From positions 1 through 36,572 of the forward strand of contig JAAYJD010000052.1 in the NCBI GenBank assembly GCA_012523135.1: DNA of 36,572 nucleotides, in the 5' to 3' direction. The notes under the pieces were generated by a model. That model was not told the origin of the DNA. It did not search any database and saw only the letters and a program-made list of their open reading frames with translations. Numbering within the stretch: the first letter of the stretch is position 1; each line of letters opens with the position of its first letter. Source of the stretch: Clostridiaceae bacterium (GTDB lineage Bacteria > Bacillota > Clostridia > Saccharofermentanales > UBA5734). The translations under genes were made by a program, and so were the position numbers. Shown here in pieces: positions 4,072 to 19,384 of the stretch.

Positions 4072-4126
4072 ATGGGGGCAGATCGGGCAAAAAAGTACAA
4101 AAAAAGACAGGGTGATGCTTAGACAG

Positions 4127-4196
4127 CCTCCCGGTTATCCCGGAGAATGATAGCGGCAGCCGTCTGCGCAACAAGCGCGGCAGCGAGTCCGGGAGG
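4127..4196 (+). promoter_or_regulatory. leader able to pair with the ribosome binding site (candidate RNA switch)
   Basis: CCTCCCGG at 4127-4134 is the exact reverse complement of CCGGGAGG at 4189-4196, which contains the ribosome binding site of the next gene. The CCGG at 4131-4134 can instead pair with CCGG at 4140-4143 across a short loop, giving a mutually exclusive local hairpin. The 54 bases between the long arms are GC-rich and can form internal stems. This is the geometry of a translational on/off leader. I do not recognise a known riboswitch class. Confidence 0.45.
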
Positions 4197-4201
4197 TTAT
4201 C

Positions 4202-5560
4202 ATGAAAGCGAAAGAATTGGTTCTGGCCGCCCTGCGCAACGAAGAAACCGAGCGCACGCCCTGGGTGCCCTTTGTCGGCTGCCATGCCGGCAAGCTGATC
4301 GGCACGACGGCTGACCGGTTCCTGCAGTCCGCGGACCTGATCGTCCAGGGCGTGGAAGCGGCGATCACACGCTACCGGCCGGACGGATTGCCGGTGGTTT
4401 TCGACCTCCAGATCGAAGCCGAAGCGATGGGCTGCCGCCTGATCTGGTCACAGGATAATCCGCCGGCGGTCGTCAGCCATCCGCTCGAGGAAGGGAAGAC
4501 GCTGGCCGACCTCAAGGTGCCGGGTGATGGCGACGGCCGTTTTCCGATCGTTCTCGAGGCGCTGCGCCGCCTGAAACAGGGCCCCGCCCGGGATATCGCC
4601 CTCTATGGCCTGATCACAGGCCCGTTCACGCTGGCCCTGCACCTGATGGGAACCGAAATCTTCTACCAGATGATCGACGAGCCCGAACAGGTCCACGCCC
4701 TGATGGAACTGACGACTCAGGTCAACATCCAGGCGGCCCGGCTCTACATGGAAGCCGGCGCGGACATCGTCGCGGTCGTCGACCCGATGACCTCGCAGAT
4801 CTCGCCGCAGAACTTCGCCGATTTTGTCACGCCCTATGCCCGGCGCGTCTTCGATGCCGTGCACGAACAGGGCAAACCCGGCACCTTTTTCGTTTGCGGC
4901 AACGCCAAGAACAACATCGAGGAAATGTGCCGCTGCCACGCCGACGGGCTCTCGATCGACGAGAACATCCCGCTCGATTATGTCCGCGACACCTGCCAGC
5001 GTTTCGGCCTGTCCTTCGGCGGCAACATCCGCCTGACGGTGACCATGCTGTTCGGGACGGCGGCGGACAACGTCAACGACGCCATGAACTGCATGGCGAT
5101 CGGCGGCACGCGCGGCTTTATCCTGTCGCCGGGCTGTGACATGCCATTCGATGTCCCGCCGGAAAACGTCGAGGCGATCACCGCCCTGGTCCACGGCGAG
5201 ATCGGCTGCTTCATGGCCGCCAGCGACCCGCTGGCTGACGTGACGCTGGATCTGCCCGACTACACGGACCGCTCGCATGTCTATGTCGACGTGGTCACGC
5301 TGGACTCCTCGTCCTGCGCGCCCTGCCAGTATATGATGGAGGCGGTCGCGCACGCCGCCCGCTCGCTGGGCAGCCCGATCGTCTGCCAGGAATACAAGAT
5401 CAAGAGCCGGGAAGGGATCCTGGCGATGAAGAAGCTGGGTGTCGAAAACATCCCGACGATCGTCATCGACGGCCAGGTTAGCTTCATCTCGGTGATTCCC
5501 GACGAGGCGACCTTTATCCAGGCCCTTCGCAAGGCTATGGCAAAAAAGGGCCTGGCGTGA
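4202..5560 (+). CDS. UroD/MtaA-like methyltransferase domain fused to a thioredoxin-like domain
   Basis: A 452-residue protein with two parts. Residues 1 to about 335 belong to the uroporphyrinogen-decarboxylase fold as used by MtaA/CmuA-type corrinoid methyltransferases. Residues about 357-452 form a thioredoxin/glutaredoxin-like domain with a CAPC dithiol at 372-375 and an IPT cis-proline motif near 417. In methyltransferase relatives a His-X-Cys pair plus a distant Cys bind zinc. Here the two cysteines are kept (C232 in FVCGN and C312 in GCDMP), but the expected histidine position is F230. No corrinoid protein or activator gene is near, so the substrate is unknown. The start has GGGAGG 5 bases upstream within the pairing leader. 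Heme-type UroD activity is unlikely. Confidence 0.82.
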   Translation: MKAKELVLAALRNEETERTPWVPFVGCHAGKLIGTTADRFLQSADLIVQGVEAAITRYRPDGLPVVFDLQIEAEAMGCRLIWSQDNPPAVVSHPLEEGKTLADLKVPGDGDGRFPIVLEALRRLKQGPARDIALYGLITGPFTLALHLMGTEIFYQMIDEPEQVHALMELTTQVNIQAARLYMEAGADIVAVVDPMTSQISPQNFADFVTPYARRVFDAVHEQGKPGTFFVCGNAKNNIEEMCRCHADGLSIDENIPLDYVRDTCQRFGLSFGGNIRLTVTMLFGTAADNVNDAMNCMAIGGTRGFILSPGCDMPFDVPPENVEAITALVHGEIGCFMAASDPLADVTLDLPDYTDRSHVYVDVVTLDSSSCAPCQYMMEAVAHAARSLGSPIVCQEYKIKSREGILAMKKLGVENIPTIVIDGQVSFISVIPDEATFIQALRKAMAKKGLA

Positions 5561-5571
5561 CGGCAAAAGGG

Positions 5572-5601
5572 TTGTCGGGCGGGCCGCTGCAATGTTACAA
5601 T
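5572..5601 (+). promoter_or_regulatory. promoter of upp
   Basis: TTGTCG (5572-5577) and TACAAT (5596-5601) are 18 bases apart, directly after the preceding stop codon. Transcription would begin near 5608, giving a leader of about 25 bases. Confidence 0.6.
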
Positions 5602-5632
5602 CGAAAAAATAGACGATGTGGAGGCCTGCCAT

Positions 5633-6262
5633 ATGGAGAACGTTTTTATCTTTGACCACCCGCTGATCCAGCACAAGATTTCCCTGATGCGCGTCAAGCA
5701 GACGACCACCAAGGAATTCCGCGAACTGGTTTCGGAAGTGGCCATGCTGATGGCCTACGAGGTCACCCGCGACCTGCCGCTCGAGGAGATCGAGATAGAG
5801 ACGCCGGTGGCGGTCGCCCGCACCAAGGTGCTGGCCGGCAAGAAGCTGGCCCTGCTGCCGATCCTGCGCGCCGGGCTCGGCATGGTGGACGGCATGCTGC
5901 AGCTGCTGCCGATGGCCAAGGTCGGCCACATCGGGCTCTACCGCGATCCGGAGACGCTCGAGCCGGTCGAATACTATTGCAAACTGCCGGAAGACGCCCG
6001 GGAGCGCGACACGATCGTGCTCGATCCCATGATGGCGACCGGCGGGTCGGCCTCTGCCGCCGTCACGTTCCTCAAGCAGAAGGGGATCTGCAACATCAAA
6101 TTCGTCTGCCTGATCGCGGCAACGGAAGGCATCGAGCGGCTGCACCGCGACCATCCGGACGTGCCGATCTTCTGCGCGGCCGAGGATAAGAAGCTGAACG
6201 ACCACGCCTACATCGTGCCCGGTCTGGGCGATGCCGGCGACCGCCTCTTCGGCACGAAGTGA
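5633..6262 (+). CDS. upp: uracil phosphoribosyltransferase
   Basis: Salvages uracil by transferring ribose 5-phosphate from PRPP to give UMP in the cytoplasm. The N-terminal [11 protein letters not shown] and the PRPP loop [12 protein letters not shown] (residues 131-142) are diagnostic, as is the C-terminal [14 protein letters not shown]. With the ATG at 5633 the protein has 209 residues, the usual length. GGAGG at 5620-5624 is 8 bases before it, so I prefer it over the in-frame GTG at 5618, which overlaps that ribosome site. The gene appears monocistronic with its own promoter. The glycerol operon promoter follows within 11 bases of its stop. Confidence 0.97.
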
Positions 6263-6272
6263 ACCGGTTAGC

Positions 6273-6301
6273 TTTACAGGGGCAGGCGGATCCGCTACAA
6301 T
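6273..6301 (+). promoter_or_regulatory. promoter of the glycerol-phosphate operon
   Basis: TTTACA (6273-6278) and TACAAT (6296-6301) have the ideal 17-base spacing. Transcription would start near 6308, leaving a leader of about 109 bases before the first coding start at 6417. Confidence 0.72.
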
Positions 6302-6331
6302 AACCTTAACTTAAGAACGAGATGCGGTTTC

Positions 6332-6349
6332 GGCTGAGAAAAGAGAGCC
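6332..6349 (+). promoter_or_regulatory. purine-loop stem upstream of the leader terminator (candidate GlpP target)
   Basis: GGCT (6332-6335) can pair with AGCC (6346-6349), exposing the all-purine loop GAGAAAAGAG. The 3' arm shares a base with the 5' arm of the following terminator, so stabilising this stem could disturb the terminator. GlpP of Bacillus subtilis is known to act on leader RNA. That this particular stem is its target is inference. Confidence 0.35.
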
Positions 6350-6387
6350 CGGAAGACGTCTGCGCGGCGTGTTCCGGTTTCTTTTTT
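6349..6387 (+). terminator. intrinsic terminator in the glp leader (attenuator)
   Basis: CCGGAA-G-ACG (6349-6358) pairs with CGT-G-TTCCGG (6368-6377) with one G/G mismatch and a 9-base loop. The U-tract TTTCTTTTTT (6378-6387) follows at once. The terminator lies after the promoter and before the first gene, so it must be read through for expression. A GlpP antiterminator is encoded in the same operon. Confidence 0.8.
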
Positions 6388-6416
6388 ATGCCGCTGACCG
6401 GAAACGGAGGTCAGAC

Positions 6417-7901
6417 ATGTTTGATGTCACGATCATCGGGGGTGGCGTGATCGGCGCCGCCATCGCCAGGGAACTGGCGCGCTACCGGCTGTCTGTCGTG
6501 CTGCTGGAGCGAAAAAGCGACGTCGCCGAAGGCACGACCAAGGCCAACAGCGCCATCATCCACGCCGGCTACGACGCCAAGCCGGGCAGCCAGAAGGCGC
6601 GTACCAATGTCGCCGGCAACGCTTTGTTCGAAGGCTGGTGCGCCGAACTGGACGTGCCCTTCCGGCGCAACACATCGCTGGTGGTGGCCTTCAGCGACGA
6701 TGACCTGCCGGGCCTAGAGGACCTGGTGGCGCGCGGGCGCGAAAACGGCGTGCCCGGCCTGAGCCTGATCGACGAGGCCGAACTGCGCCGGCGCGAGCCC
6801 AACATCGGGCCCAAGGCCCGCGGCGCCCTGCTCGCCGAAACCGGCGGCATCTGCTGTCCGTACGAGCTGACCATCTCGCTGGCGACCCATGCGCTGCTCA
6901 ACGGGGCGGAGATCCGCCTGAACACGCCGGTGACCGCCGTCCGCCGCGAAAACGGCGTTTTTGTTTGCCAGACGCCCCAGGGACCTGTCGCCAGCCGTGC
7001 GCTGGTCAACGCCGCTGGCGTTTACGCGGACACGATCAACAACCAGCTGAGCGAAGACACCTTCACGATCACGGCGCGGCGCGGCGAGTACCTGATGCTC
7101 GACAAGCGTTTCGGTCCGGCGTTCCAGGCGACCATCTTTCAGATGCCGACCCCGATGGGCAAAGGCGTCCTGATCACCCCGACCGTCGAAGACACCGTTA
7201 TCCTGGGGCCGACCGCGGAAGACATCGAGGACAAGGACGATGTGCGCACCACCGCCGGCGGGCTTGACCAGGTGCTGCGCGTCGCCGCGCTCAGCTGGCC
7301 GCAGATCCCGACCCGCCACTTCATCACGGCCTTCGCCGGTCTGCGCGCTCACTGCGACCGCAACGACTTTATCCTGGGCGAAGCCGCCGACGTGCCGGGC
7401 TTGTTCAACGCGGCCGGCATCGAGTCGCCCGGCCTGACCGCGGCGCCGGCCATCGCCGTCGAGCTGGCCGGCCAGGTTGCCGACCGCCTGAGCGCCGGAA
7501 AAAAAGACAGCTTCAAACCGCCCTATGCGACGCGCAAGCCGTTCCGCCTGATGAACCAGGCCGAGCGGGAAACGGCTGTCGCGGCCGACCCGGCCTACGG
7601 GCGGATCATCTGCCGCTGCGAATCGGTTCCGGAAGCCGAGATTCTGGAAGCGATCCGCCGCCCGCTGGGCGCGACGACCCTGGACGGCGTCAAGCGCCGG
7701 GCGCGCGCGGGCATGGGCCGCTGCCAGGGCGGCTTCTGCGCGCCGCGCGTCCTCGAGCTGCTCAGCCGCGAGCTGGGTGTGCCCCAGACCGAGCTGACCA
7801 AGTTCGGCGGCGCCTCGCGTATCCTCTGCGGAACACTCGGCGAGATGCCCGAGCCGCAGCCGCGCGCAGGACAGGAAAGGACAGGTGAGACGCATGCCTG
7901 A
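6417..7901 (+). CDS. glpA: FAD-dependent glycerol-3-phosphate dehydrogenase with C-terminal Fe-S domain
   Basis: Oxidises glycerol 3-phosphate to dihydroxyacetone phosphate. The 494-residue protein begins with a dinucleotide-binding GGGVIG motif (residues 8-13). The DAO-type FAD domain includes GTTKANSAIIHAGYD, and the protein ends in a BFD-like [2Fe-2S] domain with C399, C401, C436 and C441. This is the arrangement of the anaerobic GlpA type. The ATG at 6417 has GGAGG (6406-6410) 6 bases upstream. An in-frame GTG at 6369 falls inside the leader terminator and is not the start. The two following genes probably supply the electron-transfer partners. No glycerol kinase or facilitator gene is in the window. 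Confidence 0.9.
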   Translation: MFDVTIIGGGVIGAAIARELARYRLSVVLLERKSDVAEGTTKANSAIIHAGYDAKPGSQKARTNVAGNALFEGWCAELDVPFRRNTSLVVAFSDDDLPGLEDLVARGRENGVPGLSLIDEAELRRREPNIGPKARGALLAETGGICCPYELTISLATHALLNGAEIRLNTPVTAVRRENGVFVCQTPQGPVASRALVNAAGVYADTINNQLSEDTFTITARRGEYLMLDKRFGPAFQATIFQMPTPMGKGVLITPTVEDTVILGPTAEDIEDKDDVRTTAGGLDQVLRVAALSWPQIPTRHFITAFAGLRAHCDRNDFILGEAADVPGLFNAAGIESPGLTAAPAIAVELAGQVADRLSAGKKDSFKPPYATRKPFRLMNQAERETAVAADPAYGRIICRCESVPEAEILEAIRRPLGATTLDGVKRRARAGMGRCQGGFCAPRVLELLSRELGVPQTELTKFGGASRILCGTLGEMPEPQPRAGQERTGETHA

Positions 7902-9177
7902 AATCAGAAAGATTGACCTGGTGATCATCGGCGGCGGGCCGGCCGGCCTGGCCGCGGCGGTCGCCGCCTGGGACGACGGCTGCCACAGCCTGCTGGTCCT
8001 GGAGCGCGATGTGCGCTTGGGCGGCATTTTGCAGCAGTGCATCCACAACGGGTTCGGGCTGCATGTCTTCCACGAGGAGCTGACCGGACCGGAATACGCC
8101 GACCGCTATATCCGCCAGGTCCAGGAGCGGGGCATCCCGTTCCAGTGCGACACGATGGTGCTCGACATATCGCCCCAGCGTCTGGTCACCGCCGTCAGCC
8201 CCGCCCACGGGCTGGTGCAGATCCAGGCCGGCGCCATCATCCTGGCCATGGGCTGCCGGGAACGCCCGCGCGGCGCCCTGGCCATCCCGGGCACCAACTG
8301 CGCCGGGATCATGACCACCGGCACGGCCCAGCGCCTGGTCAACCTGGAGAGCCTGGTGCCGGGCCGGCGCATCGTCATCCTGGGCTCCGGCGACATCGGC
8401 CTGATCATGGCCCGGCGCATGACCTGCATCGGCGCCAAGGTGCTGGCCTGCGTCGAGCTGATGCCCTTTTCCAGCGGCCTGACCCGCAACGTCGTCCAGT
8501 GCCTGCACGACTACGACATCCCGCTGCTGCTCAGCCACACCGTGATTGCGATCGAAGGGCGCGAGCGCCTGACCGGCGTGACGATCGCTGAAGTCGATCT
8601 TGCCACCCGCAAGCCGATCCCCGGCACCGAGGAGCAGATCGCCTGCGACACCTTGCTGCTGTCGGTCGGCCTGATCCCGGAAAACGAACTGTCCCTGTCA
8701 GCCGGGGTCAGCTTGTCCGAGGTCACGCAGGGCCCGCTGGTCGACCAGAACCTGCTGACCGACGTGCCCGGCGTGTTCGCCTGCGGCAACGTGCTCCATG
8801 TCCACGACCTGGTCGACGAGGTTTCCGAAGAGTCGGCGCGCGCCGGCCTGGCCGCCCTGGCCTGGATCCGCGATCCGGCAGGTCCTGCCGGATCAAGCCT
8901 CGAGCCGATCCGGGTGCGCGACGGCAAGGGCGTGCGCGGCATCGTGCCGCAGCAGATTTCGCGCCCGGTCCAGCCGCCCAAACTGCACCTGACTTTCCGG
9001 CCGGACGCCGTCTACAAGCAGGCGACGATCCGGGTCGAGGTCGACGGCGAGACCGTGCTGCGCCAGAAGCGCCTGATCATGACCCCGGGCGAGATGGCCG
9101 TGGTCGATCTGCCAACCGGGCGGTTTGACCCCGCGTCAGCCCGGGAGATCACGGTACATGTGGAGGTGAGCGCATGA
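7894..9177 (+). CDS. FAD/NAD-dependent oxidoreductase, partner of glycerol-3-phosphate dehydrogenase
   Basis: A 427-residue flavoprotein of the pyridine nucleotide-disulfide oxidoreductase fold. The FAD motif GGGPAG is at residues 13-18. The second dinucleotide site begins at VILGSGDIG near residue 168, and GVFACGNVLHVHDLVDEV near residue 295 closes the FAD site. It overlaps the previous gene by 8 bases and the next by 4. In clostridial genomes this protein typically stands between the GlpA-like dehydrogenase and a DUF1667 protein, so it probably passes electrons to NAD. It is not sequence-equivalent to E. coli GlpB, though the role may be similar. An in-frame GTG at 7885 is a possible alternative start. 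Confidence 0.85.
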   Translation: MPEIRKIDLVIIGGGPAGLAAAVAAWDDGCHSLLVLERDVRLGGILQQCIHNGFGLHVFHEELTGPEYADRYIRQVQERGIPFQCDTMVLDISPQRLVTAVSPAHGLVQIQAGAIILAMGCRERPRGALAIPGTNCAGIMTTGTAQRLVNLESLVPGRRIVILGSGDIGLIMARRMTCIGAKVLACVELMPFSSGLTRNVVQCLHDYDIPLLLSHTVIAIEGRERLTGVTIAEVDLATRKPIPGTEEQIACDTLLLSVGLIPENELSLSAGVSLSEVTQGPLVDQNLLTDVPGVFACGNVLHVHDLVDEVSEESARAGLAALAWIRDPAGPAGSSLEPIRVRDGKGVRGIVPQQISRPVQPPKLHLTFRPDAVYKQATIRVEVDGETVLRQKRLIMTPGEMAVVDLPTGRFDPASAREITVHVEVSA

Positions 9178-9578
9178 GTGCGTCAAAACCCGATGTCCGC
9201 GAACTGATCTGCGTCAACTGCCCGATGGGCTGCCGCCTGCAGGTGACCGTCGAACAGGGCCAGGTGCGCACCGTCAAGGGCAATGTCTGCTCGCGCGGCG
9301 ACCGCTACGCCCGCGATGAGGTGCTCAATCCCAAGCGGATGGTGACCAGCCTGATCGTCGTGCCGGGCAGCCGCGAGCCGCTCAGCGTCAAGACACGGAC
9401 GGCCATCCCCAAGGACCGCATTTTCGATTGCCTCAAGGCGATCCGCGCCTGCCAGGTCCGCCTGCCGGTGCGGATCGGGGATGTCATTCTGCCCGATGTG
9501 CTGGGCACCGGCGTCGACGTGGTCGCGACCCGCAACTTGCCTGACGCGCCTTGCCAAGGCTCGGGCCAGACGGCATAA
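9174..9578 (+). CDS. DUF1667 iron-sulfur protein of the glp cluster
   Basis: A small protein of 134 residues with an N-terminal cysteine cluster (C13, C16, C20 and C39 in ICVNCPMGCRL and NVCSRG) that probably binds a [4Fe-4S] centre. The C-terminal half matches the DUF1667 pattern of KTRTAIPKD and LPVRIGDVIL. Its start overlaps the previous stop by 4 bases, so production is coupled. By context it is the third, electron-carrying component of the dehydrogenase complex, a place filled by GlpC in other bacteria. The last dozen residues are poorly conserved in character and overlap the promoter predicted for glpP. Confidence 0.85.
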   Translation: MSASKPDVRELICVNCPMGCRLQVTVEQGQVRTVKGNVCSRGDRYARDEVLNPKRMVTSLIVVPGSREPLSVKTRTAIPKDRIFDCLKAIRACQVRLPVRIGDVILPDVLGTGVDVVATRNLPDAPCQGSGQTA

Positions 9579-9579
9579 T
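9551..9579 (+). promoter_or_regulatory. internal promoter before glpP
   Basis: TTGCCA (9551-9556) and CATAAT (9574-9579) are 17 bases apart, at the very 3' end of the DUF1667 gene. The site would give transcripts of glpP and the G1P dehydrogenase gene that bypass the leader terminator, letting the antiterminator be made before the operon is induced. Confidence 0.55.
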
Positions 9580-9606
9580 AGGGGCAAAAAGACGGGAGCG
9601 TACCCG

Positions 9607-10176
9607 ATGGACATCCAGGCCCTGCTCGATGAGATGATCGCCAACCCGGTCATCGCCGCCATCCGTTCGCCTGAAGCGCTCAGCCAGGCGCTGCGTTCGC
9701 CGCCGACGGCGCTGTTCTTGCTGTCCGCTTCGATCAACGACGCCGCCGAAGCCGTCGGCAGCATCCGGGCGGCCGGCAAACGCTCGTTTTTGCATGTCGA
9801 CCTGATGGACGGCCTGCGCCCGGACGCGCAGGGCATGAGTTTTGTTGCCAGCCAGATCTGTCCCGACGGGATCATCTCGACCAAGCCGGGCTGCATCCGG
9901 ATGGCCCAGAGTATGGGGCTGTTGGCGGTCCAGCGGATTTTTTTGCTCGATTCCAGCGCCCTGCGCGACGGCGAGGCCAATATCCGGGCCTGCCGGCCGG
10001 ACCTGGTCGAGGTGCTGCCGGGCGTCGCCGTGCCGGCGATCCGCCTGGCGGTGGCCGCCTTTGACCGCCCCCTGATCGCCGGCGGCCTGATCCGCAGCCG
10101 CGAAGAGGTCATGGCGGCTCTCGGCGCCGGTGCGCTGGCGGTATCGACCGGCGAACGCTCGCTTTGGTCTTTATAG
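9607..10176 (+). CDS. glpP: GlpP-type glycerol operon antiterminator
   Basis: A 189-residue TIM-barrel-like RNA-binding regulator. In Bacillus subtilis GlpP binds glycerol 3-phosphate and prevents termination in leader RNAs of glp genes. Family features visible are the NPVIAAIRSPEAL start, the FLHVDLMDGL segment (residues 61-70), the DGIISTKPG segment, and the C-terminal PLIAGGLIRSREEV and GALAVSTGE phosphate-binding loops. The length is typical. GGGAG at 9594-9598 precedes the ATG by 8 bases. The matching attenuator is at 6349-6387, so the gene is both a member and the likely regulator of the operon. Confidence 0.92.
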   Translation: MDIQALLDEMIANPVIAAIRSPEALSQALRSPPTALFLLSASINDAAEAVGSIRAAGKRSFLHVDLMDGLRPDAQGMSFVASQICPDGIISTKPGCIRMAQSMGLLAVQRIFLLDSSALRDGEANIRACRPDLVEVLPGVAVPAIRLAVAAFDRPLIAGGLIRSREEVMAALGAGALAVSTGERSLWSL

Positions 10177-10199
10177 CGAAAACGAAAGGACGTGCCCCC

Positions 10200-11555
10200 A
10201 TGCCCAAAACCTTGCTTGACTATGCCCATGCCGATTACGTCTGTTCCTGCGGGAAACGCCACAGCACCAACCTGCGCAGCCTCCTGATCGCGCCGGACGC
10301 CGGCCGCCAGCTGGCCGATCTGCTCCGGACGCCGGCGTTTGGCCAGATCCGGTCCGTGCTGCTGGTCGCCGACGAAAACACCTGGCACGCGGCCGGAGAA
10401 CACGTCGCCGCCCGGCTCGGCGAAGCGGGCGTTCGCTTTTGCAAGGTAGTTTTCCCGGGCACGCCGGCGCTGGTGCCGGACGAACGGTCCGCCTTTGCCG
10501 TGCTCAACGCCCTGGACGACGAGGTCGGTCTGCTGGTGGCCATCGGGACCGGCACGCTCAACGACCTGACCCGGTTCGTTTCCAGCCGGGCCGGTCGCCC
10601 CTACGCCATCGTGGCGACCGCGCCCTCGATGGACGGCTACGCCTCGACAGTCGCTGCCCTGACCGTCGCCAACATGAAGCAGACCGTCGCGGGCCAGGGC
10701 GCGCAAGCGATCCTGGCCGACCCGGCCGTCTTGTCCGCCTGCCCGCAGGCGATGAGCGCGGCTGGTCTGGGCGATATCCTGGGCAAGTATTCCGCCGTCT
10801 GCGACTGGCGGCTCGGCCGGATGGTCGAAGGGGAGTACTACTGTGACGAAATCGCCCGCCTGATCCTGGACACGACGGCCGGCTGCCACGCCCAGGCGGG
10901 CAACAGCAGCCCGGAAGCGGCGTCCGAGCTGTTCTCGGCCCTGATCATGACCGGCATCGCCATGAGCTATGCCGGCAACTCGCGCCCGGCGTCCGGTTCC
11001 GAGCATCACCTGTCACATTTCTGGGAGATGGCCTTCCTGCGCCAGAACCGGCCCGCCGTGCTCCACGGCAGCAAGGTCGGCCTGGCTACGATCGTCACCT
11101 GCGCGCTCTACCACCGCCTGCTCGACCTCCAGCCGGACTTCGCGGCGGCCAGGTCGCAGGTCCGCCCCTTTGACCGGGAAGCCTGGACAAGCCGGATGAG
11201 TAAGGTGTTTGGCGACGGCGCGGAGGCGATCATCGAGCTGGGCCTGGGTTCCGGTGCGCATGAGCCGGAACGCATCCTGGCCCATATCGGCCGCCTGGAG
11301 GCTGGCTGGCCGGAGCTGCAAAGGCTGATCCGGACGAGCGTGCCGGCGCCGGAGGCGGTGCGCGCCGCGCTGGTCAAGGCCGGCGGGGCGACAAGCCCGG
11401 CGGAACTTGGTATCGGCATGGATATGGTCGAAGACAGCTTGCGCTATGCGGGCGAAATGCGCGACCGCTACACGGTGCTGCGCCTGTATGCCGACCTCGG
11501 ACTGACCGACGAGGCGATCCGGGTGGTCGGCGGACTGTTCAGCCCAGGTTATTGA
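10200..11555 (+). CDS. glycerol-1-phosphate dehydrogenase, AraM type
   Basis: Interconverts dihydroxyacetone phosphate and sn-glycerol 1-phosphate with NAD(P)H. It is a 451-residue member of the iron-dependent alcohol dehydrogenase / dehydroquinate synthase fold. The NAD loop GTGTLND is at 116-122, the APSMDGYAS substrate segment at 141-149, and histidine metal ligands lie in SEHHLSH near residue 268. Bacillus AraM is the characterised bacterial example. AAAGGA is 9 bases upstream of the ATG. Co-transcription with a glycerol-3-phosphate dehydrogenase set links both glycerol phosphate enantiomers. The 3' end overlaps the convergent DUF4956 gene by 7 bases. Confidence 0.88.
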   Translation: MPKTLLDYAHADYVCSCGKRHSTNLRSLLIAPDAGRQLADLLRTPAFGQIRSVLLVADENTWHAAGEHVAARLGEAGVRFCKVVFPGTPALVPDERSAFAVLNALDDEVGLLVAIGTGTLNDLTRFVSSRAGRPYAIVATAPSMDGYASTVAALTVANMKQTVAGQGAQAILADPAVLSACPQAMSAAGLGDILGKYSAVCDWRLGRMVEGEYYCDEIARLILDTTAGCHAQAGNSSPEAASELFSALIMTGIAMSYAGNSRPASGSEHHLSHFWEMAFLRQNRPAVLHGSKVGLATIVTCALYHRLLDLQPDFAAARSQVRPFDREAWTSRMSKVFGDGAEAIIELGLGSGAHEPERILAHIGRLEAGWPELQRLIRTSVPAPEAVRAALVKAGGATSPAELGIGMDMVEDSLRYAGEMRDRYTVLRLYADLGLTDEAIRVVGGLFSPGY

Positions 11556-12205
11556 AAATCGCCCGAAAAGCGTACCAGCGAAGCGGACTGGACGCCGTCA
11601 ATCTGCTGCAGCTGCTCGACCAGGCGCACGTCCTGGTTGCGCAGGGAAAGCTCCAGGACCGCTTCGAAGCCGGCGGCTGTCGCTGTTTTGCTCTTGAGCG
11701 TGTACGCGGGCAGGATCTGGCGCAGATCCGCCTTGAAACGGCTGTCGTAGCGGATGACCAGCAAAAAGGGCTTCTTGCGGCTGCCGGACTGCAGCGCCGT
11801 CGCCACCATGAGGACGGCGGCCAGGACCAGGCAGCCGACGACCGCCAGTTCGAAAAAGCCGGCTCCGGCGGTCAGGCCCAGGGCGATGGCCCAGAACATG
11901 TAGACGATGTCCAGCGGGTCCTTGAGAGCGGTGCGGAAGCGGACGATCGAGAGCGCGCCGACCATGCCGAGCGAGAGGACGATGTTGGAGCTGATCGGCA
12001 TGATGATCAGCGCGGTGACCATCGCGACCAGCAGCAGGGCCGTGCCGAAGCTGCGGTTGAACAGCACACCCCGGAAAGTAAACCGGTAGACGAACAGGAT
12101 CAATAGCCCCAGCAGCAGCGTGATCGCAAAGGTGATCAGGATCCGCGGCAGCTCCAGGGGCTGGTTGACGTTCACGTCGAGCAGTTTGGCTAGCAGTTCT
12201 CTCAT
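11549..12205 (-). CDS. DUF4956 integral membrane protein
   Basis: A 218-residue protein with four or five hydrophobic segments in its first 145 residues (about 21-43, 54-74, 76-93, 103-121 and 122-142). A soluble C-terminal domain of about 70 residues resembles ACT-type regulatory folds. The segment MVGALSIVRFRTALKDP between membrane helices is characteristic of DUF4956, and its basic and acidic residues suggest a functional membrane site. It is the last gene of the CotH-VTC-DUF4956 operon. The function is unknown; association with polyphosphate polymerases in many genomes suggests transport or anchoring of the product. An upstream GGAGG (TACCGCCCC side, minus strand) precedes the start. Confidence 0.88.
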   Translation of the reverse strand: MRELLAKLLDVNVNQPLELPRILITFAITLLLGLLILFVYRFTFRGVLFNRSFGTALLLVAMVTALIIMPISSNIVLSLGMVGALSIVRFRTALKDPLDIVYMFWAIALGLTAGAGFFELAVVGCLVLAAVLMVATALQSGSRKKPFLLVIRYDSRFKADLRQILPAYTLKSKTATAAGFEAVLELSLRNQDVRLVEQLQQIDGVQSASLVRFSGDFQ

Positions 12206-12258
12206 GGGGCGGTACCTCCGGTGTTCATGGGGCTTGAGTCAGGTCGGATCGGGTCGGG

Positions 12259-12984
12259 TTACATGTCTTCCCAGCTTTGCTGGCGGCACCAGGCGGCGCA
12301 TTGGACATACTTGCTGACCGAAAGGGGCGTCGCCCCGGCCAGTTCGAGCGCATCCCGGATGAAATCAGGTATGAAATGGTCAAATTTGACCTCCAAAATG
12401 ACCGTATCGGGCGGCAGGACCGGCACCAGGGCGGCGTCCGGATCCCACAGGTCCTGGCGGAACAGGCCGGTGGCAAGGCGCCGGTCGAAGGTGACCCGGA
12501 CGTTGCCGTCCGGCCAGAGCAGGGGCAGGCGGTGGTAGTCGACCAGCAGCGCGGGCCGCAGCAGCCGGGTCTGCCAATCCGTGTAAAAGCGGCCCAGCAG
12601 CGTGTGCTGCTCCTCTTTGCCGGCCGCCTGAAAGGCCGCGAAGAGCGGCTCGATGTCGCCGGCGAGCAAACGGTCGGTCAGCTCTTTCGACAGGGGGCAG
12701 CCGTGCTTGCGGGACAGGTTGCCGGACTTGGCCTTCATCTCCAGCCGGATCACCTGGTCGCTGTTGTTGTAGATGCGGACGCGAAACTTGTAGCGCGGGT
12801 CGGTGCCGGCCAGCTTCTCGAAAATGCCGCGCTTCGCGTCGTCGTCGAAATAGAGGCTGCGGATGCGGTAGCCGCCGTCGCCGTCCTCGTGCCGGTCGCG
12901 CCGCAGCAGCGGCCGCAGCCGGTAGTAGAGCCGCCCAAACGCGGCATCGTTGATCAGGAATTTCAGCTCGTGGCGCCAGGTCAT
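12259..12984 (-). CDS. VTC-domain polyphosphate polymerase-like protein
   Basis: A 241-residue protein of the CYTH/VTC tunnel fold, which in yeast Vtc4 polymerises phosphate from ATP. The expected basic and acidic tunnel strands are visible: RHELKF (residues 4-9), YRIRSLYFDD (about 39-48), KFRVRIYN (about 67-74), LEMKAK (about 81-86), and a late VILEVKFD strand. The SPX domain of eukaryotic VTC is absent, as usual in bacteria. The gene starts inside the stop of the CotH gene (ATGA overlap). Its position between a CotH-like kinase and a DUF4956 membrane protein suggests a polyphosphate- or nucleotide-linked envelope function. Catalysis is not proven. Confidence 0.87.
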   Translation of the reverse strand: MTWRHELKFLINDAAFGRLYYRLRPLLRRDRHEDGDGGYRIRSLYFDDDAKRGIFEKLAGTDPRYKFRVRIYNNSDQVIRLEMKAKSGNLSRKHGCPLSKELTDRLLAGDIEPLFAAFQAAGKEEQHTLLGRFYTDWQTRLLRPALLVDYHRLPLLWPDGNVRVTFDRRLATGLFRQDLWDPDAALVPVLPPDTVILEVKFDHFIPDFIRDALELAGATPLSVSKYVQCAAWCRQQSWEDM

Positions 12985-15900
12985 GAGAAATCCCCCGGGA
13001 AGAGCGCCTTCATCTGGCTGGCGGGCAGATTGAACGTCTCCTGCAGGATCTGGATCACCCGGCCGCGCTTTTCCGAGGTGATGCGGCGCAGCTCCTTGAC
13101 CTGATTTTCCCAGTAGGCGAGGGAAGACGGCCCGCCCCAGCGGGCGATCTGGCGCGGCATTTCGGGCCGGATCGTCTCGGTCATCTCGTCCAGGATCGCC
13201 AGCATGCGGTCGGTCTCGAACACCTCATTGAGATACCAGGCGTAGCGCGCGATGAAGGCCTCCCGGAAGTCCGGGTTCTGCATCAGCTTGACCTGGAGGG
13301 TGGCGTCAAAGATATCCTGCTGGCCGTGGCCGTTGGGGTCGAGCAGGTCGTACTTGAGGATGTTCTTCTGGTAGGTCGTCGGGAACATCGCCCAGTCGAG
13401 GTCGAAGAAGACCCAGCGCCACTCGGCCCCGTCTGCGCGTGCCCGCCAGAATTTCTTGTTGCCGGAGTCGAGGTTGTTGAAAAAGGTCTGCGTGATCACA
13501 AAATCCATCAGGCTGTGCTCATCGATCTGGCTGAGGACATAGGCGTAGGCCTCATCGTCGCGCATGTCGTGGTTCTTGACATAACTGAGCAGCTTGCCGT
13601 AGGCGTCGTAGTCGCCGTTCAGGATGATGCGGTTGCCCTTGATGATGTCGACCTGGTCCGGGTCGGTACCGTGGTGGGAGGCCATGTAGTACTGGTCGAC
13701 CTTCTCGCGCAGGTTGTACAATCCGAAATATTCGCCGTTGATGTAGACAATAATTGCGCGGTGGTCCATCGTGTCCTGGGCGGTATAGTCGGCGATCACC
13801 TCGGTCATGAAGGCGTCGCGCAGCTTGGTGAAACGCCAGTCCTGGCCGGATGTCCGCAGCACCAGGCGCTTGAAGGTCTGGACCGGGTTGCCCGGGAAGA
13901 AGGGGTAGGTGACCTGGCTGTCGCCGTACATCGTGCGCACCTTGAGCTCGAGCGATTTCTGCTTTTCCGTCCGGCTGTAAGAGCCATGCAGGGCGATGCC
14001 GGCCGAGAAGCCGACGCCCCGGGTGCCGTCGGCCTCGTAGAAATCGATTGTGGCCTCGCGCTCGATGTCGGCCTGGTAGTTGGCCCACAGGCCGTCAGCG
14101 GCGTCAAAAAAGTCGTCCGGGCGGCCAACGATCGACACGACCGGCAAGGTGTGGCGTTCGCCGGCCAGGAAGGTCCGCACAAGGTCCGGGCTGTCCAGGC
14201 TGCCGTCCAGCGTGGCCATGCAGCGGATCACCGTCGTCTGGTCGACCCGCAGCGGCTCGGTGTAGCGATGGCTGGCTGCGGTCGGCGGTGAGCCGTCCAG
14301 GGTGTAGTGGATGGCGGCCCCGGGCTGCGGGGAGGACAGGGTAACCAAGGCCGGCCCGTCCAGGTACAAACCGCTGAGCGGCGTCTGGTCGTTTTGCGAA
14401 ACCGCCGTTAGCGCGGGCGTCATGGCGATTCCGGTGGCCGCTTGGCCGCTGTTGGCCCGGCCCGGTGTCGGCTGGCGGTAAAAGAAACGGCTGTCCGCCG
14501 GCTCGGCGCCGTCCGTGTTGCCGCGGCCGCTGCTGACCTGGTTGGCCAGGGCGCCGGTCGTGAAGCGGTCGACCCAGACGCCGTCCGGGTCGGTGAGCTG
14601 CAGTGTCTCGCCGCTGCCGGATATGCCAAAAGCGGCCGGTTCGACCAGCGCGTAGCCGCCCGGCTCGATCACGAGGCCGGACAGCGTCTCCAGGAAGGGG
14701 CTTTTGGGATCGTCGCTCAGGCCGTAGCCGGTGAGGTCGACCGGCTCGTCCAGACCGTTGAAAAGCTCGATCCAGTCGGCTTTTGCGGCCTTGCTGCCGC
14801 GGGTGACCGTGGCCTGCAGGGCGATAACCTCGTTGATCCAGACACCCCGGTTTTTCAGCTGCAGGGCGCCCGGCAAGTCGGCGAAGCCCTGCGTGTCGTT
14901 GGCCCGTCCGGGCGTGGGCGTCGGAAAAAAGAACCAGCTGTCCGGATCAGCCAGGCTGCGGCCCCGCGAGACGTTGGCCGGCAGGGCCTCAACCTCCTGG
15001 GTGAGCAGCAGACGGCCGCGCGCGTCCGCCAGCAACAGCCGGCTGTCGTTGTCACCCAGCCGGAACGAGGCGGCCAGGGTGGCCGGCTGCCCCGGGATAT
15101 AGGCGGTCTGTTCCCCGCTCAGCCAGACCACGAGATACTCGCCCGGTCCGACCGTCAGGTCGGGAAAGGACCAGCGGTCAAGCTGGTCCGGATCGTCGGA
15201 GAGCGTGCAGCCGAGCAAGGGGAACGGTTCGCTGCCGGTGTTGTACAATTCGACCCAGTCCGGGTAGAGGCCGGCGGGGTCAGGCAGTTTGTCCTGGGCC
15301 GTGACATATTCATTGACGATCAGGGGACAGTCCGGCACCCGGATGGCGTCTTCGGCCAGCACGTGGCCGTCCTGGCCGTTGGGGCCGTGCGGGGTCGGTT
15401 CCGCGAAAAAATAATAGGGGTCGGTGTTGCCGGCCGCGCTGTCCTTGAGGCCCCAGGAGACATCCGTCGGGATCGCCGGCACGGCCAGGCGGGCCAGCAC
15501 GTTGCCGGCCGGGTCAGAAAAGATGAGGTCTTCGCCGGCTTGCGCCAGGCGGAACGCGGCGTGGATCTCGCCGCCGGCGAAGGCATCGTCCGCCTCCTTG
15601 CCGCTCAGGCCGGAGGCGTAGACCACCAGCCGGCTGCCGGGGGACAGCGTGACCGCCGGAAAAACCCAGTCCATCGGGCGGTTGAGGTTGTCGGACAAGC
15701 CGTAGCCGGCCAGGTTGACCGGGGCAGACGAGATGTTCCACAGCTCGATCCAGTCCGGGGTCTGCTGGTCCGCCGTCTGCAGGATCGAGCGGTTCGAAGA
15801 CACGATCTCGCTGATCAGGACCGGGCTGGCGACGACCGGTTTGACGGTTTCGGTCGGTTCGGGCGGTTCGGTCGTTTGGCTGCCGGTGGTGGTGGGGATG

Positions 15901-16049
15901 ACGGCCATGTCGTCGGGCAGCAGGCCGTGGCCGGAAAAAGCATAGAAAACGATGAGCAGCAGGACCAGGACAGCCAGCAGGATCAGCAGGCCGGCTTTTT
16001 CCCGGCTGCTGAATCGGTTCGGATTTCGACGGGCTGTTTTTTGGGTCAT
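12981..16049 (-). CDS. membrane-anchored CotH-family kinase with three lamin-tail domains
   Basis: A 1022-residue envelope protein. Residues 20-38 form one membrane anchor, followed by a Thr/Pro/Glu-rich linker (about 50-72). Three lamin-tail (LTD) repeats follow at about 75-190, 242-350 and 402-495, each ending near a PTPGRAN-like linker (about 219, 377 and 527). Then comes a chitobiase-like beta domain (about 565-628) and a CotH kinase domain (about 635-985). CotH motifs include INGEYFGLYNLREK (770-783), DIIKGN (801-806), FNNLDSGNKKFW and FFDLDWAMF (881-889), the last carrying the presumed metal-binding aspartates. CotH of Bacillus spores is an atypical protein kinase. Orientation after the anchor suggests an extracellular catalytic domain. 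The ATG at 16049 has AGGAG 8 bases upstream. Longer in-frame starts enter the promoter. Confidence 0.88.
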   Translation of the reverse strand: MTQKTARRNPNRFSSREKAGLLILLAVLVLLLIVFYAFSGHGLLPDDMAVIPTTTGSQTTEPPEPTETVKPVVASPVLISEIVSSNRSILQTADQQTPDWIELWNISSAPVNLAGYGLSDNLNRPMDWVFPAVTLSPGSRLVVYASGLSGKEADDAFAGGEIHAAFRLAQAGEDLIFSDPAGNVLARLAVPAIPTDVSWGLKDSAAGNTDPYYFFAEPTPHGPNGQDGHVLAEDAIRVPDCPLIVNEYVTAQDKLPDPAGLYPDWVELYNTGSEPFPLLGCTLSDDPDQLDRWSFPDLTVGPGEYLVVWLSGEQTAYIPGQPATLAASFRLGDNDSRLLLADARGRLLLTQEVEALPANVSRGRSLADPDSWFFFPTPTPGRANDTQGFADLPGALQLKNRGVWINEVIALQATVTRGSKAAKADWIELFNGLDEPVDLTGYGLSDDPKSPFLETLSGLVIEPGGYALVEPAAFGISGSGETLQLTDPDGVWVDRFTTGALANQVSSGRGNTDGAEPADSRFFYRQPTPGRANSGQAATGIAMTPALTAVSQNDQTPLSGLYLDGPALVTLSSPQPGAAIHYTLDGSPPTAASHRYTEPLRVDQTTVIRCMATLDGSLDSPDLVRTFLAGERHTLPVVSIVGRPDDFFDAADGLWANYQADIEREATIDFYEADGTRGVGFSAGIALHGSYSRTEKQKSLELKVRTMYGDSQVTYPFFPGNPVQTFKRLVLRTSGQDWRFTKLRDAFMTEVIADYTAQDTMDHRAIIVYINGEYFGLYNLREKVDQYYMASHHGTDPDQVDIIKGNRIILNGDYDAYGKLLSYVKNHDMRDDEAYAYVLSQIDEHSLMDFVITQTFFNNLDSGNKKFWRARADGAEWRWVFFDLDWAMFPTTYQKNILKYDLLDPNGHGQQDIFDATLQVKLMQNPDFREAFIARYAWYLNEVFETDRMLAILDEMTETIRPEMPRQIARWGGPSSLAYWENQVKELRRITSEKRGRVIQILQETFNLPASQMKALFPGDFS

Positions 16050-16097
16050 GCTCGCTCTCCTGTGCTGCTGCCGGGAAATGAGATGGATAACGCCCCT

Positions 16098-16126
16098 ATT
16101 ATTCCATATTTGCGGCTGTTTGTTAA
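16098..16126 (-). promoter_or_regulatory. promoter of the CotH-VTC-DUF4956 operon
   Basis: On the minus strand TTAACA (16126-16121) and AATAAT (16103-16098) are separated by exactly 17 bases. The transcript would start near 16091, about 40 bases before the CotH coding start. Confidence 0.65.
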
Positions 16127-16149
16127 GGGCGAGCTGGCGGCGCAGCATT

Positions 16150-16203
16150 CGGGAACATTTGACGCGTGCCGCGTCCGAAATGTTCCCGGCTGGCGCTTTT
16201 TTT
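16150..16203 (+). terminator. strong stem-loop with T-run in the cotH/glycosidase divergent region
   Basis: CGGGAACATTT (16150-16160) pairs perfectly with AAATGTTCCCG (16178-16188). The stem is continued by GACGC/GCGTC (16161-16165 with 16171-16175) after a 2-base bulge. Seven T residues stand at 16197-16203, 8 bases after the stem. No plus-strand gene lies directly upstream, so this may stop antisense transcription through the CotH operon, or the 11-base dyad may be an operator. Confidence 0.5.
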
Positions 16204-16232
16204 GATCCCGATTCGATAAATCGTGTTACACT
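16202..16232 (+). promoter_or_regulatory. possible promoter of the GH106-like gene
   Basis: TTGATC (16202-16207) and TACACT (16227-16232) are 19 bases apart, longer than ideal. The start would be near 16239, with AGGAGG at 16257-16262. The -35 box overlaps the T-run of the preceding stem-loop. Confidence 0.4.
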
Positions 16233-16267
16233 GTCTGAGGAACAAATCATTTCAGCAGGAGGTTTTT

Positions 16268-19200
16268 ATGCTCTACCCGCAAAACCAGCAGCCTTTTGAC
16301 CCGGACCTGTTTTGCAACCCCACGGCCGAATACCGGGGGACACCCTTCTGGGCCTGGAACTGCGCCCTTGATCCCGATGAACTGACCCGCCAGATCGATG
16401 GCCTGCAGGCGATGGGCTTTGGCGGTTTTCACATGCACGTGCGCACCGGCATGGCCACGCCCTACCTGAGCGACGCTTACATGACGCTGATCCGGACCTG
16501 TATCGACAAGGCCAGGGCCAACCGGATGCTGGCCTGGCTATATGACGAGGACCGCTGGCCGTCCGGCGCGGCCGGCGGCCTGGTGACACAAAACCTGGCC
16601 TGGCGCGCCCGCCATCTGCTCCTGACCCCGGTGCCATACGCCCAGGACGCGGGCGGATCGGAAGCCACGGATTCGTCCGCCCGGGCGTCCCGCACCGGCA
16701 ACGGCCGCCTGCTGGCGCGCTACGACATCGTCCTGGACGCGCAGGGCTGTTTGGCTTCGGGCCAGCGCCTGGCTGAAGGGGAGACGGCGCGCGGCACCTG
16801 CTGGTACGCCTACCTGGAAACGGCAAAGCCCAACCCCTGGTACAACAACCAGACTTATGTCGACACCCTGAACCCGCAGGCGATAAAGGCTTTCATCGCG
16901 GCGACCCACGAGCGGTACCGCGAGACCTGCCGCGACGATTTTGGCGGCGTGGTGCCGGCCATCTTCACCGACGAACCCCAGTTCTCCCATAAGACGCTGC
17001 TGGCCCATGCCGCCGACTCGAGCGATGTCGTTTTGCCCTGGACCGACGACCTGCCGGCGTCGTTTGCCGCCGCCTGCGGCGCCGACCTGCTGGCCGCCAT
17101 ACCGGAGCTGGTCTGGAACCTGCCCGCCGGCCGGGTGTCCGAGGCACGCTACCGCTACCACGATCACATCGCCGAGCGCTTTGCCGCCGCCTTCGCGGAC
17201 CAGATCGGCGCCTGGTGCCGGCAGAACAACCTGCTCCTGACCGGGCACATGATGGAAGAGCCGACCCTCAAAAGCCAGACCGCCGCGCTCGGCGAGGCGA
17301 TGCGCTCGTACCGCTCGTTCGGTCTGCCCGGCATCGACATCCTCTGCGACCGGCGCGAATGGACGACCGCCAAGCAAGCCCAGTCGGCCAGCCGGCAGTT
17401 CGGCTGCCCCGGTGTCCTGTCCGAGCTGTACGGCGTCACCAACTGGGACTTCGATTTTCGCGGCCACAAGCTGCAGGGCGACTGGCAGGCGGCACTGGGC
17501 GTCACCGTGCGCGTCCCGCACCTGTCCTGGGTCTCGATGGCCGGCGAGGCCAAGCGCGACTATCCCGCCAGCATCAACTACCAGGTGCCCTGGCATGCCG
17601 AATACCCCCTGATCGAGGACCACTTCGCCCGGGTCAACACGGCTCTGACCCGCGGCCGGGCCGTGTGCCGTGTCGGCGTGATCCACCCCGTCGAAAGCTA
17701 CTGGCTGCACTGGGGGCCGGAGGAGCAGACCGCGTCGGTGCGCACGTCGCTCGACGAACATTTCGCCCAGGTGACCGACTTTTTGCTGCGCGGCCAGATC
17801 GACTTTGATTTGATCAGCGAATCGCTGCTGCCCGAACAGTGCCCCCAGGCCACTTGCCCGCTGGAGGTCGGCCAGATGGCCTACGACACGGTCGTCGTGC
17901 CGGATCTGCTGATGCTGCGCCAGACCACGATCAGCCGCCTGGAGCAGTTTGCCGACGCCGGCGGCCGCGTCATCTTTTTGTGCCCGTGCCCGGCGCTGGC
18001 CGACGGAAAGGCCAGCGACGCGGCGAGGCCTTTGTACGCGCGTGCCGAAAAGGTCCGCCTGACCCGCCTCGACCTGCTCGAAGCGCTGGAGCCGTCGCGC
18101 CAGGTCGCTATCCGCGCCAGGGACGGACGCCTGTCCGACCGCTACCTCTGCCAGCTGCGCGAGGACGGGGCGGCGCGCTGGCTGTTCGTGGCCCATGCCG
18201 ACCATCCGGCCAACCAGGACATGTCCGGCGCCGAACCGCTCTCGCTAAAAATACGCGGCGACTGGACGGTTGCGCTTTGCGACACGCAGGACGGGACGAT
18301 CCGCCGCCTGGATGCCAGATCGGACGGCAGCTGGACCTGGCTGGAAACGATTCTGGGCGACCACGACAGCCTGCTGCTGCGATTGCTGCCGCCAGGAAAC
18401 GGTCATGACCTGCCGGCTGAACACCCTGCCGGGCGAAAGCCTGAAGCGCCGTTTGTCCCCCTGGACCTGACCTGCCCGGCTGTGCCGGCGCAGCTGTCCG
18501 AACCGAATGTCTGTCTGCTGGACATGGCCTCGTTTGCCCTCGACGACGCGCCGCTGCGCCCGGCCGAGGAACTGCTGCGCGCGGACAACATCCTGCGGGC
18601 CGAGCTGGGCTGGCCGCTGCGCCAGAAAGCCGTCGCCCAGCCCTGGACCGTGCCGGACCAACCGGCCGAACACCGCGTGCGCCTGCGTTTCGACGTCCGC
18701 AGTACAGAACGGCTGGACGGCTGCCAGCTGGCGCTGGAAATGGCCGGGCAGGCCCGGATCGCCCTCAACGGCCAGGCGGTTCCCGCGCTCACGACCGGCT
18801 GGTATGTCGACAAGGCGATCCAGACGGTCGCGCTGCCTGGGCTGGATGCCGGGCTCAACCGGCTCGACATCGACCTGCCTTTCGGCCGGCGCACCGACCT
18901 GGAATGGTGTTACCTGCTGGGCGATTTTTCCGTCCAGGTGACCGGGACCCGATGCACGCTGGGTCCGGCAGTCACAACCTTGGCTTTTAGCGACATCACG
19001 GGCCAGGGCCTGCCGTTTTACGGCGGCAACATCACCTACCGGGCACGCATCAAAACGCAAGCGGCACCTGCCGTGCTGCACCTGCCGCAGTACCGCGGTG
19101 CTCTGGTCATGGTCGCCGTCGACGGGGCGCGTGTCGGACCGGTCGTGTACAGCCCCTATGCGCTCAGGCTGCCGGATCTGGCGCCAGGCGTTCACGAGCT

Positions 19201-19384
19201 GGCGATCACCCTGTTCGGCAACCGCGTCAACACCTTCGGGCCGGTGCATAACAGCGATCGCCAGATGTCCTGGTTCGGGCCCAACGCCTGGCGGACCAGC
19301 GGCGACGCCTGGAGCTATTCCTACCAGCTGAAGGAGACCGGCCTGCTCAAGGCGCCGGAGCTGTCCGGTGCCGCCTGGATCTGA
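16268..19384 (+). CDS. large cytoplasmic glycoside hydrolase, GH106-like
   Basis: A 1038-residue protein without signal peptide or membrane segment. The N-terminal pattern NPTAEYRGTPFWAWN (17-31) followed by QIDGLQAMGFGGFHMH resembles the barrel start of GH106 alpha-L-rhamnosidases and related unclassified glycosidases. Candidate catalytic acids lie in YDEDRWPSG (92-100), FTDEPQ (233-238), HMMEEP (about 326-331) and ELYGVTNWDFDF (about 386). The C-terminal third looks like beta-sandwich modules, ending in GNRVNTFGPVHN. AGGAGG precedes the ATG by 5 bases; an in-frame upstream ATG at 16223 overlaps the likely promoter. The substrate cannot be read from sequence; a cytoplasmic rhamnoside or other deoxyhexoside is a guess from the family. 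Confidence 0.75.
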   Translation: MLYPQNQQPFDPDLFCNPTAEYRGTPFWAWNCALDPDELTRQIDGLQAMGFGGFHMHVRTGMATPYLSDAYMTLIRTCIDKARANRMLAWLYDEDRWPSGAAGGLVTQNLAWRARHLLLTPVPYAQDAGGSEATDSSARASRTGNGRLLARYDIVLDAQGCLASGQRLAEGETARGTCWYAYLETAKPNPWYNNQTYVDTLNPQAIKAFIAATHERYRETCRDDFGGVVPAIFTDEPQFSHKTLLAHAADSSDVVLPWTDDLPASFAAACGADLLAAIPELVWNLPAGRVSEARYRYHDHIAERFAAAFADQIGAWCRQNNLLLTGHMMEEPTLKSQTAALGEAMRSYRSFGLPGIDILCDRREWTTAKQAQSASRQFGCPGVLSELYGVTNWDFDFRGHKLQGDWQAALGVTVRVPHLSWVSMAGEAKRDYPASINYQVPWHAEYPLIEDHFARVNTALTRGRAVCRVGVIHPVESYWLHWGPEEQTASVRTSLDEHFAQVTDFLLRGQIDFDLISESLLPEQCPQATCPLEVGQMAYDTVVVPDLLMLRQTTISRLEQFADAGGRVIFLCPCPALADGKASDAARPLYARAEKVRLTRLDLLEALEPSRQVAIRARDGRLSDRYLCQLREDGAARWLFVAHADHPANQDMSGAEPLSLKIRGDWTVALCDTQDGTIRRLDARSDGSWTWLETILGDHDSLLLRLLPPGNGHDLPAEHPAGRKPEAPFVPLDLTCPAVPAQLSEPNVCLLDMASFALDDAPLRPAEELLRADNILRAELGWPLRQKAVAQPWTVPDQPAEHRVRLRFDVRSTERLDGCQLALEMAGQARIALNGQAVPALTTGWYVDKAIQTVALPGLDAGLNRLDIDLPFGRRTDLEWCYLLGDFSVQVTGTRCTLGPAVTTLAFSDITGQGLPFYGGNITYRARIKTQAAPAVLHLPQYRGALVMVAVDGARVGPVVYSPYALRLPDLAPGVHELAITLFGNRVNTFGPVHNSDRQMSWFGPNAWRTSGDAWSYSYQLKETGLLKAPELSGAAWI

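Follow-up and report, generated by a model that had tools for sequence, protein, structure and literature searches.

A CotH–VTC–DUF4956 gene set standing apart from Pel clusters: a candidate membrane-tethered bacterial polyphosphate polymerase with an exported kinase

What joins a CotH kinase protein, a VTC polyphosphate-polymerase homologue and a DUF4956 membrane protein in one operon, and does the combination depend on the Pel exopolysaccharide? The question is raised by a 36,572-nucleotide stretch of a Clostridiaceae bacterium (contig JAAYJD010000052.1, GenBank assembly GCA_012523135.1), the whole of which is referred to here as the window. The three genes form a minus-strand run (11549–16049) in the order CotH, VTC, DUF4956. 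The CotH stop and the VTC start share the sequence ATGA, and 53 bp separate VTC from DUF4956, the ATG of which is preceded by a GGAGG site. An earlier note on this DNA had described the run as a tight operon with the ATGA overlap, which was confirmed. Comparison of genomes showed that VTC and DUF4956 form an obligate pair in the samples searched, a new regularity, that CotH is their commonest yet optional partner, and that the trio exists independently of Pel, which is also new and contrary to a published statement.

The gene set is not undescribed, as the earlier note had held. Whitfield et al. (2020) found cotH, a poly-phosphate polymerase gene and a DUF4956 gene side by side in the pelDEADAFG clusters of streptococci, clostridia and bifidobacteria, and described them as accessory genes (PMC7112168). 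In a 2025 study of Streptococcus intermedius (PMC12345266), SIR_1592 (DUF4956), SIR_1593 (VTC) and SIR_1594 (CotH) were each deleted. Loss of SIR_1592 or SIR_1594 cut aggregation in 10% artificial sputum medium to less than half, and the level of Pel was raised by the DUF4956 deletion and lowered by the CotH deletion. The study states that its analyses found no such arrangement beyond the Pel locus. The S. intermedius genes belong to the same families as those of the window and are likewise adjacent, on one strand and in CotH–VTC–DUF4956 order, but the window has no pel genes nearby, its genome has no PelG, and its CotH protein is about twice as long, with three lamin-tail domains. The window trio is a Pel-free, lamin-tail variant of the published gene set. 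A further relative is found in NELoc-2 of Clostridium perfringens (CP4_0460–CP4_0468), which holds CotH and two VTC genes (PMC2879425). As in the window, VTC is followed there (twice) by a membrane open reading frame, of 222–226 amino acids and annotated as a tubulin/FtsZ GTPase; unlike the window set, that of NELoc-2 lies near a chitin-synthase-like glycosyltransferase gene, and it is not a pel set. The two annotated GTPases, CP4_0461 and CP4_0464, stand behind the VTC genes, have the length of DUF4956 and are probably misnamed DUF4956 proteins.

Conservation was assessed in two samples, comprising 58 relatives and 149 genomes spread evenly over the phylum. Occurrence of the trio in related genomes had been set beforehand as a test of the earlier note, and the trio is present in relatives; the remaining genomes of the genus, four in number, all show the identical gene order, and the arrangement is therefore far beyond chance. 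Among the 58 relatives there were 50 VTC matches, 47 of them full-length, and DUF4956 lay 119–252 bp downstream of every one of the 47. Just two DUF4956 matches were without a nearby VTC gene, both weak and below the cut-off. In the phylum sample, the 21 genomes with VTC are precisely those with DUF4956, and each genome has as many copies of the one as of the other (26 of each overall). Were the two independent, the chance of this same-genome pattern would be 5e-26, a value that is too small given the kinship of the genomes, yet 19 genera are involved. Close neighbours make up 25 of the 26 pairs, mostly as VTC then DUF4956; in four pairs DUF4956 is located just upstream of VTC, in G182 CotH lies between the two, and the genes of the 26th pair (G115) are near contig ends. 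Of 14 control genomes that are not part of the phylum sample, each profile also matched three, and these were identical for the two (Bacteroides ihuae, Corynebacterium glutamicum and Methanosarcina acetivorans). CotH was found near 29 of the 47 VTC loci in relatives and 17 of the 26 in the phylum sample, either upstream or downstream. Since CotH accompanies part of the VTC loci and DUF4956 all of them, the unit is VTC with DUF4956; of the trio that the earlier note took as a unit, this core stands and CotH is not a core part.

In a second class of VTC loci, a Cthe_2159-type carbohydrate-binding protein, encoded just behind DUF4956, takes the place of CotH. The VTC proteins linked to it form one clade (support 100/100), and two genomes (G033 and G044) each carry both classes, so the class difference follows the gene partner and not the species. 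No constant extra gene was found in the CotH-free VTC–DUF4956 modules, the neighbours of which are heterogeneous. Often found alongside are a two-component system and, where the trio is Pel-free, RsgI-type anti-sigma factors; genes for the latter precede VTC in Pel-free trios (five of 57 neighbours scanned, e.g. L062:7979–9046). Assignment of the two-component neighbours as PhoB/PhoR was rejected: they are of the generic OmpR type and all fall below the NCBIfam cut-offs. A purple-acid-phosphatase-type gene is placed divergently beside VTC at L081:7823–9061 and at six other Paenibacillus loci, possibly a phosphate link or just shared ancestry. At one locus (G018:C155:16848–17561) the VTC gene contains a single in-frame TAG while the neighbouring CotH and DUF4956 genes are open, owing to a sequencing error or to decay.

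PelG was used as the marker for pel. None was found in the five genomes of the genus, that of the window included, or among the window genes scanned, and the window lacks the adjacent pelG and pelDEADAF genes by which a Gram-positive Pel cluster is recognized. The 29 trios of the relatives comprise four beside PelG and 25, the window's included, in PelG-free genomes; the phylum sample has 17 trios, 15 of them in genomes that lack PelG. Sixteen named genomes have a fetched VTC–DUF4956 locus without pel genes, most of them with CotH, and 13 of these 16 are PelG-free genome-wide, among them Paenibacillus catalpae, Clostridium mobile, Evansella caseinilytica and a Bathyarchaeota bin (L079). Many of the genomes are metagenome-assembled, which makes single absences of PelG soft but not the overall pattern. 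Of the 13 Pel-linked sequences in a 100-protein VTC tree, 12 fall into one 16-row group nested inside the CotH class, with the close relatives of the window protein (L050–L052) outside it. One alternative is that the trio is a Pel accessory set as published, the pel genes having been lost here or fallen into an assembly gap. The synteny with pel conserved in streptococci, clostridia and bifidobacteria (PMC7112168) agrees with this, as do pel genes at 15 of 80 fetched loci and at four of the 29 trios of relatives. Two findings mostly refute it: PelG is missing throughout the genus (five genomes) and in the majority of genomes with a trio phylum-wide, and Pel-linked VTC proteins are confined mainly to one derived clade of the CotH class. 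We consider it very improbable. At five Paenibacillus loci (L080:6083–9193, L086, L092, L096 and L118) PelG carries CotH fused to its C-terminal end, and VTC and DUF4956 follow immediately; in that Pel setting the fusion is a physical link of CotH to polymer export.

The VTC gene (12259–12984, minus strand) encodes 241 amino acids and was identified by Pfam (VTC, E = 6e-33), by alignment and by a profile match to Vtc4. A profile of 25 bacterial VTC proteins, searched against solved structures, matched yeast Vtc4 (3g3q, E = 3.6e-22; also 8i6v) and gave no credible match to an unrelated family. When VTC or CotH was searched as a single sequence against solved structures, nothing relevant emerged; the matches came from profile searches. 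Residues K200, R264, R266, E279, K281, K294, R361, R373, E426, S457 and K458 of Vtc4 correspond to K8, R68, R70, E82, K84, K93, R152, R163, E198, S224 and K225 of the window protein, and all 11 are invariant in 25 of 25 diverse VTC sequences that include the window and both classes. All of these except E279 and S457 we take to be active-site residues. Loss of the VTC catalytic residues, which the earlier note had named as a refutation, was thus not seen, and because they are kept we infer that VTC would polymerize polyphosphate from ATP in the cytoplasm. As in the eukaryotic VTC complex (Vtc4/Vtc3/Vtc1), a tunnel domain that retains every catalytic residue is coupled to an obligate membrane partner. 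Unlike it, the window protein is the VTC domain alone, without an SPX domain, and the partner is the MgtC-like DUF4956 instead of a Vtc1-type three-helix domain. Activity and translocation like those of yeast VTC are predictions here.

We give an even chance to the reading that the operon encodes a membrane-tethered bacterial polyphosphate synthase, corresponding to the VTC of eukaryotes, together with a surface effector. On a different and decidedly unlikely account, VTC would be a tunnel enzyme of other activity, a tripolyphosphatase or phosphoryl transferase, and the operon would phosphorylate a lipid-linked or surface polymer. The substrate of the surface CotH is unassigned and ATP is scarce outside the cell, which would fit such a role. 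The superfamily has many activities, and other bacterial CYTH proteins are triphosphatases (PMC3440374). The specific match to the Vtc4 profile, with K200, R264, R266, K281, K294, R361, R373, E426 and K458 all kept, speaks for a polymerase instead.

The DUF4956 gene (11549–12205, minus strand) encodes a membrane protein of 218 amino acids, supported by Pfam (PF16316, E = 4e-13; 49.9 bits, above the cut-off of 30.6), an AlphaFold model, an alignment and structure comparison. In the model, built with 57 sequences (predicted local distance difference test score 87), helices at the N-terminal side form a membrane part and an ACT-type domain makes up the C-terminus (residues ~142–218). Five transmembrane helices are predicted (19–43, 51–68, 75–90, 97–114 and 118–141), the transmembrane part having been modelled alone. 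The C-terminal domain resembles those of MgtC proteins (2lqj, Z 8.4, 3.1 Å for 80 residues; 7qa5, Z 8.1, 3.2 Å for 79 residues), matches that are tied with many other ACT-like folds, and structure searches with the whole model gave matches confined to this domain. At the level of sequence profiles, DUF4956 aligns with Escherichia coli YhiD (MgtC/SapB) across both its transmembrane and its ACT part (E = 1e-6). Of 57 members, 34 have a weak match to Pfam MgtC (best 2.5e-6); the window protein is below that cut-off (15.3 bits versus 31.4). From these comparisons, DUF4956 is classed as related to MgtC/SapB and not a member of it. Like YhiD and MgtC, it combines a transmembrane region with a C-terminal ACT-type domain, but it is a distinct Pfam family, is always paired with VTC and has the motif R89, R91 and K95, which is invariant in 57 of 57 sequences and adjoins a short helix. 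These residues may contact phosphate groups at the membrane. As the membrane partner, DUF4956 would tether VTC much as membrane partners hold Vtc4, and would probably pass on or regulate the product, which might be exported as with yeast VTC.

In another account, the genes would form a phosphate- or ATP-responsive regulatory module for surface polymers and no polyphosphate would exit the cell. DUF4956 would sense or tune energy or phosphate, VTC would make a small cytosolic polyphosphate or triphosphate signal, and CotH would phosphorylate an exported regulator or export machine. ACT-type domains usually bind ligands, and the C-terminus of DUF4956 matches such domains as well as the C-terminal domains of MgtC proteins. 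Regulators of the two-component and RsgI types are found beside Pel-free trios more often than any other neighbours, and CotH is fused to PelG in Paenibacillus. The opposite changes in Pel on deletion of DUF4956 and CotH in S. intermedius are in keeping with such control, as is the action of Salmonella MgtC on ATP synthase and PhoR (as cited in PMC12345266). This account leaves unexplained the invariable presence of a polymerase-type enzyme with all catalytic residues and the exchange of CotH for a carbohydrate-binding protein, and we regard it as rather unlikely.

The CotH open reading frame spans 12981–16250; its likeliest start is the ATG at 16049, behind the ribosome-binding site AGGAGAG, giving a protein of 1022 amino acids (12981–16049, minus strand, as for the segments that follow). 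A hydrophobic segment read from the translation (residues ~24–46; 15912–15980) would serve as a signal anchor. Pfam identified the CotH kinase (E = 2.5e-38), the Lamin Tail Domain in three stretches (PF00932, E = 2e-34) and CHB_HEX_C_1/Fn3_assoc. The first lamin-tail domain comprises residues 75–188 (15486–15827) and is aligned in relatives, and two more lie between it and residue 558. A chitobiase/Fn3-associated module follows (residues 559–620; 14190–14375; PF13290/PF13287), and the kinase domain occupies residues 685–990 (13080–13997), as placed by Pfam, by two alignments and by comparison with Bacillus cereus CotH (5jd9). The anchored, CotH-like kinase with three lamin-tail modules that the earlier note described was upheld by these results. 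A profile match to 5jd9 and the two alignments place D861 (13467–13469) and D883 (13401–13403) at D228 and D251 of B. subtilis CotH, mutants of which are inactive (PMC7821199). Both VTC and CotH look intact in sequence, which is necessary for activity and not sufficient. The kinase domain, with its D228/D251 equivalents, is shared with the Bacillus spore-coat kinase; in contrast to the latter, the window protein is exported, anchored and predicted to be extracytoplasmic, carries lamin-tail modules and lacks a spore-coat gene context. Modification of envelope proteins or polymers by CotH, as the earlier note proposed, is plausible because both catalytic aspartates are kept, the protein is exported and PelG–CotH fusions occur in Paenibacillus.

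In the synthase reading, the exported product of the third gene would act beyond the membrane: here CotH with lamin-tail modules, possibly phosphorylating a surface protein or polymer, and elsewhere a shorter CotH or the Cthe_2159 carbohydrate-binding protein, an exchange of genes that is itself observed. The unit would have joined the pel cluster in some lineages while standing alone in this organism. An exported polyanion might be bound by a cationic exopolymer such as Pel, and this would account for repeated recruitment to pel clusters. A bolder version, which we hold to be highly doubtful, makes VTC–DUF4956 a bacterial and archaeal synthesis-coupled polyphosphate translocase and has the exported CotH phosphorylate surface proteins or polymers from polyphosphate and not from ATP, which is lacking outside cells, with Pel clusters having merely recruited it. 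The wording of the earlier note, that the system makes or moves polyphosphate, stands as far as sequence allows, the Vtc4 active-site residues being invariant and VTC inseparable from a membrane protein.

Several observations weigh against a VTC-like synthase. What is known of MgtC proteins is mainly regulation, of ATP synthase and of phosphate uptake, and not polymer export. The transmembrane model of DUF4956 searched alone gave no usable match, neither to any channel nor to the membrane part of yeast VTC, a result that speaks neither for nor against a link to the yeast VTC channel. PPK1 is also present in this genome (contig C2), and in the phylum sample it occurs in 10 of 21 VTC genomes versus 14 of 128 others. 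VTC as a replacement for PPK1 was rejected: the two co-occur above expectation, and VTC is therefore no simple PPK1 substitute. No biochemical proof of polyphosphate synthesis by any bacterial VTC was found in the literature searched, and for the SIR_1593 (VTC) mutant no change in aggregation or Pel is described in the passages of PMC12345266 consulted.

Ahead of the trio, a consensus scan found a promoter-like site on the minus strand (TTAACA-17-AATAAT, 16098–16126, with TG before the second, −10, hexamer; 10/12 matches) ~50 bp before the CotH start; its outer edge is the point at which the earlier note had ended the operon. Three such sites were observed in the region against 0.8 expected, and taken alone the 10/12 site is weak evidence of a promoter. 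The genes on both sides of the trio are on the opposite strand. The end of DUF4956 overlaps convergently by 7 bp with a glycerol-1-phosphate-dehydrogenase-like gene (10164–11555), the last of a cluster of the glycerol-3-phosphate type (2551–11555) that also contains genes for an FGGY kinase, a URO-D family protein, a glycerol-3-phosphate oxidoreductase, an FAD protein and a glycerol-3-phosphate antiterminator. This adjoining sugar-metabolism cluster is ordinary. A single frame in it (4202–5560) encodes the URO-D family protein with a C-terminal thioredoxin-like domain. On the other side, 16268–19384 encodes a glycoside-hydrolase-like protein of 1038 amino acids, the family matches of which are all weak and below the cut-off.

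The trio is more than a part of Pel. Its relevance lies in how bacteria, which have no vacuole, may use a VTC-type polymerase, and in a possible route of polyphosphate to the cell surface. The strict coupling of VTC to DUF4956 gives the latter a partner and a testable role, and makes the two a candidate minimal polyphosphate synthase/translocase pair, through which secreted CotH kinases would gain a possible source of phosphate.

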